Part shown: positions 26,404 through 29,321 of the stretch, piece by piece
Numbering within the stretch: the first letter of the stretch is position 1
Layout: each line of letters begins with the position of its first letter
Assembly: GCA_956465555.1 (NCBI GenBank)
Contig: OY101118.1
Coordinates: 1,426,001-1,490,000, forward strand
DNA from: Nitzschia sp. pyKryTriq1
Lineage: Eukaryota; Bacillariophyta; Bacillariophyceae; Bacillariales; Bacillariaceae
Length of the DNA: 64,000 nt
Direction: 5' to 3'
Notes under the pieces: model-generated
The model's input: only the letters and a program-made list of their open reading frames with translations
Database searches by the model: none
Told to the model about the DNA's origin: nothing
Position numbers and translations under genes: made by a program

Positions 26404-26455
26404 CGTCAGCCCCTCCCCACCAAGAATGGATGTTTAGAGGAGCGTCATTCATACC
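26404..26455 (-). promoter_or_regulatory. SECIS element, 3' UTR of first peroxiredoxin
   Basis: Ninety bases after the stop codon. On the minus strand it reads GGTATGAATGACG, then an 8-bp stem, an A-rich apical loop start (AAAC), a small CCA/TGG inner stem, the return strand, and CTGACGAAT. Core: ATGA at 26448-26445; GCTCCTCT (26443-26436) pairs with GGAGGGGC-type bases 26416-26409; TGA at 26408-26406 supplies the G-A partners of the quartet. The same flanks occur after the second gene. The distance ATGA to AA is 9 nt, slightly shorter than the common 10-13. Confidence 0.8.
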
Positions 26456-26539: not shown

Positions 26540-27389
26540 TTAGCTGGTTTCAGCGATTCCCTTCAAGAGGGCATCCACGAGGGTAGGCTCGGGGAAGTCA
26601 TCACCAGCAGGGTCGAATTCAGGATCCTCGGCAAGGGCGAAGAACTTGACTTCGCCATCGTCGACGTACATGGCATGTCGCTTGCAGCGGCCAACCAATC
26701 CCTTTCCGAGAGGACCAGGGTGAGTCAATTCCATGTCGACGGCTTTGGTGAAGGCGCTGGTGGGGTCACCGTACATTTTGATCATGGTATCGGTGGTTTT
26801 TTGGTCAGCAGCCCAAGCCTTCATCACGGCTGTCATGATTTCAGGGTGAGTGAACAATGCTCAAACCATACACAAGTCTGGAAGCACGATACAAAACAGC
26901 AACGCTTACCTCCGTCGTTCACGCAGTAGATCATGACTTCGTCAATTCCTGCTGCTTTAAGTGCGTCTTGTTGTTCCTGTCGAATGTTCACAAATGAGAC
27001 GGGAGAGAATAACTATTGTGAGAAGAATTTCGCGGCAGATTCGAAATGGATCTTTATCCTGGCATGTGCCCCTCTATTGAGATTATTTTCCAACAGATGG
27101 ACTACACGTACTCACCAGGTAGCCTGGTACTTGGCGTCCGGATCAAGTCGGAGTGAAAGCACCTGCAATCATGATAACGGGCGGTCGGACATGTGAGAAA
27201 AATCAAATCAAAGAAAGGTGTAGGCCATCATCTCGTCAAAGGCCTAATCGATCTCGACGACGTACCTGGCAAACCGAGGATGATGACCTTCTTGCCCTTG
27301 ACATACTCGGCGACGTTGATCTTTTCGGGAGGAAATCCGAAATCAAATTCGATACTTGGGATCTTGTCCCCTGCTTTGATAGGAGCCAT
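26540..27389 (-). CDS. PRX5: Selenocysteine-containing type II (PRX5-like) peroxiredoxin, probably cytosolic
   Basis: Four exons: 27266-27389, 27116-27162, 26910-26976 and 26540-26829, all GT-AG; sum 528 nt, 175 residues if the internal TGA is read through. The protein starts MAPIKAGDKIPSIEFDFGF without a signal peptide. Residues 38-57 read LGLPGAFTPT-U-SGRQVPGYL, where U is TGA at 27145-27143. In type II peroxiredoxins this exact place is the peroxidatic Cys of PGAFTPxCS, which reduces peroxides. The domain then continues normally (YCVNDGAVMKAW, MYGDPTSAFTKAVDME, GRCKRHAMYVDDGEV) to a true TAA. A Cys 27 residues on (IYCVND) could resolve. A SECIS lies 3' of the stop. Reading TGA as a plain stop would leave 47 residues without active site. 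Confidence 0.88.
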
Positions 27390-28513: not shown

Positions 28514-28572
28514 CGTCAGCCCCTTTATACCAGTCGTTAACGATTGGAATATTGAAGGGGCGTCATTCATAC
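28514..28572 (-). promoter_or_regulatory. SECIS element, 3' UTR of second peroxiredoxin
   Basis: On the minus strand: GGTATGAATGACG, a 7-bp stem GCCCCTT (28561-28555) pairing with AAGGGGC (28525-28519), AA at the loop start, then CTGACGAAA. ATGA is at 28566-28563 and TGA at 28518-28516. Within the loop, CCA-A-TCG-TTAA-CGA-C-TGG forms an extra mini-stem, as in form 2 SECIS. Compared with the first copy, the stem differs at pair 7 (C-G to T-A, both sides changed) and pair 3 (T-G to C-G), which keeps the fold. Confidence 0.82.
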
Positions 28573-28650: not shown

Positions 28651-29321
28651 TTAGGCGGACTTGGCCATCTCGATGAGAGCAGGAGCCAGAGTTTTCTCAG
28701 GGAAATCGTCACCAGCGGGGTCCAATTCGGATTCCGCAACTGCAACTGCTTTGACAACGCCGTCAACGACACACATAGCAAATCGCTTGCAGCGGCCAAT
28801 AATTCCAACCGATGCGGGACCTGGGTGTGTCATTTCCATGCCAAGGGCTTTGGTGAACTCACCAGTCGGATCTCCAAACATGGAGACCATGCTGCCCTCA
28901 GTGCCTTGGTCCTTTTCCCAGGCTTTCATAACAGCTCTACAAAGCGATGGACGTGAGAAATGAAATATCGGGACGGCAAGTAAATGACACAACACTAATG
29001 TTCTTACCCATCGTTGACGCAGTACACGACGATTTCGTCGTATCCTGCCTCCTTAAGTGCGTCTTGAGACTCGAGGTACCCAGGTACCTGACGAGAAGAT
29101 CAAGTGGGAGTGAATGCTCCCGGAAGGCCAACAATCGCGACCTTTCGTCCGGCAACATGTTCTGCCATGTTTACCATCGCTGGGGGGAATCCAGAGTGCA
29201 ATTCCACAGCAGGAAGCTTGGTTCCAGGAGTGATGGCAGCGAAAGCAGCGGAGTATCCACCGAAGTGGGCTGCTGAGGCGGTCGACGCCAATGTGGCGGC
29301 AAATAGGCTGAAGATTTTCAT
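28651..29321 (-). CDS. PRX5: Selenocysteine-containing type II (PRX5-like) peroxiredoxin with signal peptide
   Basis: Two exons, 29008-29321 and 28651-28936, around a 71-bp GT-AG intron; 600 nt, 199 residues with the internal TGA read through. The ATG at 29321 opens a signal peptide (MKIFSLFAATLASTASA) followed by AHFGGYSAAFAAI, so the protein enters the secretory path or, in a diatom, possibly the plastid. Residue 74 is TGA (29102-29100) in LPGAFTPT-U-SSRQVPGYL, the peroxidatic position. Sequence continues DALKEAGYDEIVVYCVNDG, AVMKAWEKDQ, MFGDPTGEFTKALGMEMTHP and GRCKRFAMCVVDGVV. It is a paralogue of the gene 1.3 kb downstream, with the last intron at nearly the same place but shifted by 2 nt, and lacks two of that gene's introns. 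A SECIS follows. Confidence 0.88.

Follow-up and report, generated by a model that had tools for sequence, protein, structure and literature searches.

In-frame TGA codons at the peroxidatic position of two tandem type II peroxiredoxin genes from Nitzschia sp., very probably decoded as selenocysteine

Introduction

On contig OY101118.1 of Nitzschia sp. pyKryTriq1 (assembly GCA_956465555.1), a predicted type II peroxiredoxin gene, here called gene A, carries a TGA codon in frame at the place of the peroxidatic cysteine. This raises the question whether the codon is a lesion in a cysteine gene, whether it is translated as some other amino acid, or whether it is decoded as selenocysteine (Sec). 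The stretch of DNA analyzed, referred to as the window, comprises 64,000 nucleotides (positions 1,426,001 to 1,490,000 of the forward strand of this contig). Sec-containing peroxiredoxins (PRX) have been predicted in the diatom Thalassiosira pseudonana, for which a table of PMC2375036 lists two, and in Ostreococcus (PMC2375036). The discussion of PMC7539508 counts PRX as one of the Sec proteins with the widest algal distribution; section 5 of the same article assigns this rank to GPX, SELENOU, SELENOT, and TXNRD. From the analysis presented here, we consider it very probable that the UGA codons of gene A and of a neighboring gene B are decoded as Sec at the peroxidatic position of type II peroxiredoxins.

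Results

Genes A and B and their in-frame TGA codons

An earlier sequence-only reading of this DNA had placed a single in-frame TGA at the peroxidatic cysteine of a four-exon gene and had stated that the frame continues intact to a normal stop codon, and both statements hold. According to an exon model based on splice signals and reading frame (Table 1), all three introns of gene A are of the GT..AG type and the joined exons form a single frame of 528 nt and 175 residues, the sole internal stop of which is the TGA at 27145-27143 in the context LPGAFTPT-TGA-SGRQVPGYL; exons 3 and 4 stay open and end with TAA. No obvious targeting sequence was seen by eye in exon 1.

Table 1. Positions within the window of the exons, in-frame TGA codons, and SECIS-like elements of genes A and B.
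Feature	Position	Strand	Remarks
Gene A exon 1	27266..27389	-	start codon at 27389
Gene A exon 2	27116..27162	-	holds catalytic motif GAFTPT-U-SGRQVPGYL
Gene A in-frame TGA, codon 48	27143..27145	-	peroxidatic Cys position
Gene A exon 3	26910..26976	-	
Gene A exon 4	26540..26829	-	terminal TAA
Gene A SECIS-like element	26406..26450	-	GAATGACG ... AAA ... GGCTGA; stop-to-ATGA gap 91 nt
Gene B exon 1	29008..29321	-	signal-peptide-like start (by eye) and motif GAFTPT-U-SSRQVPGYL
Gene B in-frame TGA, codon 74	29100..29102	-	peroxidatic Cys position
Gene B exon 2	28651..28936	-	terminal TAA
Gene B SECIS-like element	28516..28568	-	type II shape, extra helices above unpaired AA; stop-to-ATGA gap 84 nt

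The Redoxin model of Pfam matches gene A at 4.1e-22 and gene B at 1.5e-23. The best solved relative of gene A is human peroxiredoxin-5 (PRDX5; PDB 4k7i, E 1.4e-29), and a plant-type peroxiredoxin (PDB 1tp9) is matched at 1.2e-26. Both structures share with gene A the Redoxin family, the PGAFTPxC motif, and the conserved Arg, but have Cys where gene A has TGA/Sec. That the catalytic cysteine of type II peroxiredoxins lies at exactly this spot, as had been claimed, is borne out by the alignment with PRDX5, which runs through PGAFTPxCS and places the Cys opposite the TGA. The P-x-x-x-T-x-x-C/U active site and the conserved Arg are present in gene A as P41, T45, U48, and R127, and among the best 120 of 3873 relatives P41 is found in all 116 proteins covering the position, T45 in 115 of 116, and R127 in 120 of 120. 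R127 is presumably the catalytic Arg of the peroxiredoxin site. In the 4k7i alignment the human Cys of ACLSVND falls opposite Ile73 of gene A, and the two cysteines of gene A, Cys75 and Cys128, fall opposite Ser and Leu of PRDX5. One relative with W at the catalytic site, P0032, possesses a glutaredoxin domain (PF00462) beside Redoxin, which hints at glutathione as the reductant.

Gene B is located directly upstream of gene A on the same strand and ends about 1.3 kb before the start codon of gene A. It encodes 199 residues and its only internal stop, the TGA at 29102-29100, occupies the same catalytic position as in gene A. Across the genome, exact matches to TTCACTCCNACTTGATC, the pattern surrounding the TGA, number two, one in gene A and one in gene B. 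The two genes form a tandem of diverged type II peroxiredoxins. Two of the relatives, P0003 (close A-type) and P0004 (close B-type), share the longest-contig value of 4594, a hint that the A-B tandem may be retained in another alga.

Some animal selenoprotein mRNAs are known to be under nonsense-mediated control, and in both genes the UGA is found 92-94 nt ahead of the last exon junction, so that selenium-dependent decay of the transcript would be possible. Under such a conditional switch, UGA would act as a stop at low selenium and the transcript would be degraded, expression of the two genes thereby tracking the selenium supply; the junction rule comes from mammals, however, and may not hold in diatoms. 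We regard this switch as possible but rather unlikely, and it would add to the decoding of UGA as Sec and not replace it.

Further peroxiredoxin loci of the genome

The genome was searched for relatives of gene A at E 0.001 or better. A single TGA was present at each of three further loci (C12:1257793, C3:3299131, and C1:4435903), with the catalytic position read in C12 and C1, giving five loci of the Sec type in the genome (A, B, C12, C1, and C3). The C3 and C1 copies (L015/L016) are 97.7% identical over 2892 nt, indicating a recent duplication. At C7:1019268, a Cys codon (TGT) is found at the catalytic site, which by our reading lies just past an intron. Read by eye from their N-termini, the product of gene A looks cytosolic, that of gene B would probably take a plastid or secretory route, and those of C12 and C1/C3 are probably mitochondrial and secretory, respectively.

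These loci bear on the possibility that a pseudogene or an assembly error has put the TGA as a lesion into a Cys gene, a reading with nothing in its favor beyond the mere stop codon and a very improbable one, because TGA stands at the equivalent residue in A, B, and the three further loci (two of these three being near-identical), neither A nor B has a second internal stop, and SECIS-like hairpins follow downstream. The earlier judgment that a pseudogene is unlikely is upheld.

SECIS-like hairpins downstream of the stop codons

Type II SECIS elements are generally laid out with an ATGA/TGA core, unpaired A residues, and an upper helix. Hairpins displaying ATGAC, an unpaired AA, and TGA are present 84-91 nt past the TAA stops of genes A and B. 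The ATGA/TGA core is closed by a helix of 8 bp in A and of 7 bp in B, and a second helix is found above the unpaired A residues. Blocks conserved between the two 3' UTRs are GGTATGAATGACGC and, beyond the loop, GGGGCTGACGAA. When the hairpins of A and B were compared, 100% of the pair cells were kept in 10 pairs, as opposed to 42-65% when the two were slid against each other, with one two-sided change. Covariation was as high in 261 of 500 shuffles, two sequences providing no power for this analysis. Energy z-scores of the two hairpins, from -0.74 to -2.11, indicate that they are weakly more stable than shuffles and do not single them out.

A descriptor requiring 6 bp or more in the closing helix yielded two matches in total over the two strands of the window, the elements of A and B, and none in 40 Markov-shuffled windows, a descriptive scan since the descriptor was drawn from these same elements. 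In the genome, the core pattern GAATGACG-N(24-54)-GGCTGA was matched 17 times versus 5 times for a reversed control, and the closing helix is formed by 2 of the 17 matches, A and B only; by design, the gap of 24-54 leaves out the three remaining loci of the Sec type, whose hairpins are longer. SECIS-like hairpins (AATGACG ... GGCTGA) lie downstream of all five of these loci, the one at C12 being clearly stable (z -3.62), and a relaxed hairpin scan also detected weaker alternative hairpins at 4 of the 5. At the Cys loci L021 and L026, no SECIS-like hairpin was found.

Searches with Rfam SECIS models gave no match in the window at the gathering threshold, in the segment 25900-29400 with the limit relaxed to E 10, or across the genome with SECIS_1, and this is read as insensitivity of the SECIS_1 model, which was run without a positive control. 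As far as eukaryotic type II SECIS elements are described in the available portion of PMC2375036, the elements of A and B resemble them in the ATGA core, the unpaired A, the further helix above, the TGA on the 3' side, and the location in the 3' UTR; they differ in being missed by Rfam SECIS_1 and in having a helix of just 7-8 bp beneath the run of unpaired A. Judged by core motif and helix, though not by Rfam, the 3' UTRs of both genes each contain a putative SECIS element.

Sec decoding genes and use of TGA in the genome

The check for decoding machinery comprised tRNA-Sec, SepSecS, and EFSec. The genome of 40.65 Mb contains three tRNA-Sec genes above the Rfam cut-off, with the anticodon TCA, and both SepSecS and an EFSec domain are present. 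Of four GPX loci, three have one TGA, always at the catalytic NVA-x-x-U-G position, and the fourth has TGT. Hairpin scans of the fetched flanks of the three TGA-bearing GPX loci revealed no convincing SECIS-like element. TGA terminates 9 of the 18 mechanical open frames of at least 300 aa in the window, so that readthrough of TGA is not the general rule here.

Residues of relatives at the catalytic site

Among the best 120 of the 3873 relatives of gene A found by protein search, 113 had the motif, and the catalytic residue in these was W in 84, C in 28, and R in 1. When the same 120 were scored by alignment column, W was present in 85, C in 28, D in 2, and R in 1, with a gap in 4. The W printed in these environmental protein catalogues is probably a TGA translated with code 4. 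Two W residues per protein were counted in 70 of 85 W-type proteins versus one in 20 of 28 C-type proteins, and an extra W is what a gene caller using code 4 would produce from a single TGA. A TGA may also have left its mark in the C-terminal stubs P0092, P0114, and P0117, in the Nitzschia annotation P0123, which is without the active-site stretch, and in the transcript-derived P0063, P0086, and P0137, with shifted reading at the site. The DNA of the loci kept from a viral collection (80 of 584) and from prokaryotes (80 of 576) showed only Cys codons at the site. Organism names readable among the listed relatives were Eucampia, Corethron (cut), 'Dactyl...' (cut), and Nitzschia, all of which we take to be diatoms.

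In the wider set, Ser occupies the peroxidatic position in P0125 and P0129, and Arg is found there in P0073. These proteins possibly represent one-base changes from TGA with loss of the peroxidase function.

The printed W is also what could speak for TGA being read as another amino acid, for instance Trp in a reassigned code, or for plain readthrough, either of which would give a peroxidase-dead protein. Such a reading is highly improbable given that TGA ends half of the long frames in the window, that tRNA-Sec with the matching anticodon is encoded, that relatives without W at the site mostly have Cys (28 C and 1 R of 113, with 2 Ser in the wider set), and that the remaining active-site residues are retained. 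Decoding of the TGA as Sec, on the other hand, is supported by the SECIS-like element after the stop codon, by a second gene of the same kind, by the Sec decoding genes, and by relatives that mostly have W or C at this position.

Distribution of Sec, Cys, and Cys75 among relatives

A quick tree was built from 150 rows, consisting of 145 of the 164 listed proteins and 5 sequences from this genome, the 19 other proteins having been dropped for having no readable motif. The tree requires 11 Sec/Cys changes; when the Sec label is set against all others, supported branches force at least 7. A, B, C12, and C1 each have a different nearest row, in every case of the Sec type, suggesting that the four may be old paralogs; gene B belongs to no strongly supported small group in this tree. 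Cys75 occurs in 105 of 117 Sec rows versus 12 of 30 Cys rows, a difference that looks strong on raw counts (Fisher 4e-8). In a tree-aware sign test, with only 7 independent pairs on supported branches, a tie between Sec use and Cys75 did not reach significance (median p 0.25). A broader scheme can be drawn up in which Sec-peroxiredoxins of at least four old lineages, all with a SECIS of their own, would serve different compartments (A the cytosol, B the plastid or secretory route, C12 the mitochondrion, C1/C3 the secretory route), with Sec coupled to a resolving Cys75 and Sec and Cys exchanged repeatedly along with Cys75; we consider this scheme doubtful.

Discussion

The TGA positions, the intact frames, the hairpin motifs, and the machinery genes are direct observations, and from them we infer how Sec insertion, catalysis, resolution, and targeting might proceed. 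A SECIS-binding protein would bind the hairpin in the 3' UTR and recruit EFSec with Sec-tRNA(Sec), and Sec would be inserted at the UGA. Within the P-x-x-x-T-x-x-U/Arg site, the selenolate would attack H2O2 or an alkyl peroxide, and one of the protein's own cysteines (Cys75 or Cys128 in A), glutathione, or thioredoxin would probably resolve the resulting selenenic acid. The predicted sites of action would be the cytosol for A and, given its signal-peptide-like start, probably the secretory or plastid route for B.

Peroxiredoxins of this sort have been reported before, from diatoms as well as from other algae, and A and B are further examples. The Sec peroxiredoxins of T. pseudonana likewise come from a diatom and rest on the same sort of in silico evidence (PMC2375036), and the five loci of the Sec type found here compare in number with the two listed there. 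Proteomics of T. pseudonana, in the portion of PMC5139114 available, reported peroxiredoxin Q but not this Sec-peroxiredoxin. For Symbiodinium minutum, PMC7539508 describes a Cys-containing PRX that is followed by a SECIS, as well as three PRX genes in a cluster; its available sections on the algal PRX selenoprotein family mention no diatom tandem pair, unlike the A-B arrangement here. The locus of A and B presents a locally complete case, with TGA, SECIS-like element, machinery, and paralogs of a Sec peroxidase. Ordinary annotation seems to misread such Sec peroxidases, giving Trp at the site, C-terminal stubs, or proteins in which the active-site stretch is missing.

If Sec is confirmed, this alga would employ selenium in several peroxiredoxins simultaneously, a point relevant to its selenium requirement. 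Contig C20 is plastid-like and partly masked, with psbB, dnaB, secY, and rpoA named by eye in the 20 of 123.5 kb that were read, indicating that the host is a photosynthetic alga, and contig C19 is mitochondrion-like. At locus L213 (G000:C1:2957500-2962500), a large nuclear contig contains a frame that stays open for about 1138 residues, includes a RuBisCO-large-like domain (PF00016, 84.7 bits), and probably encodes a RuBisCO-like protein.
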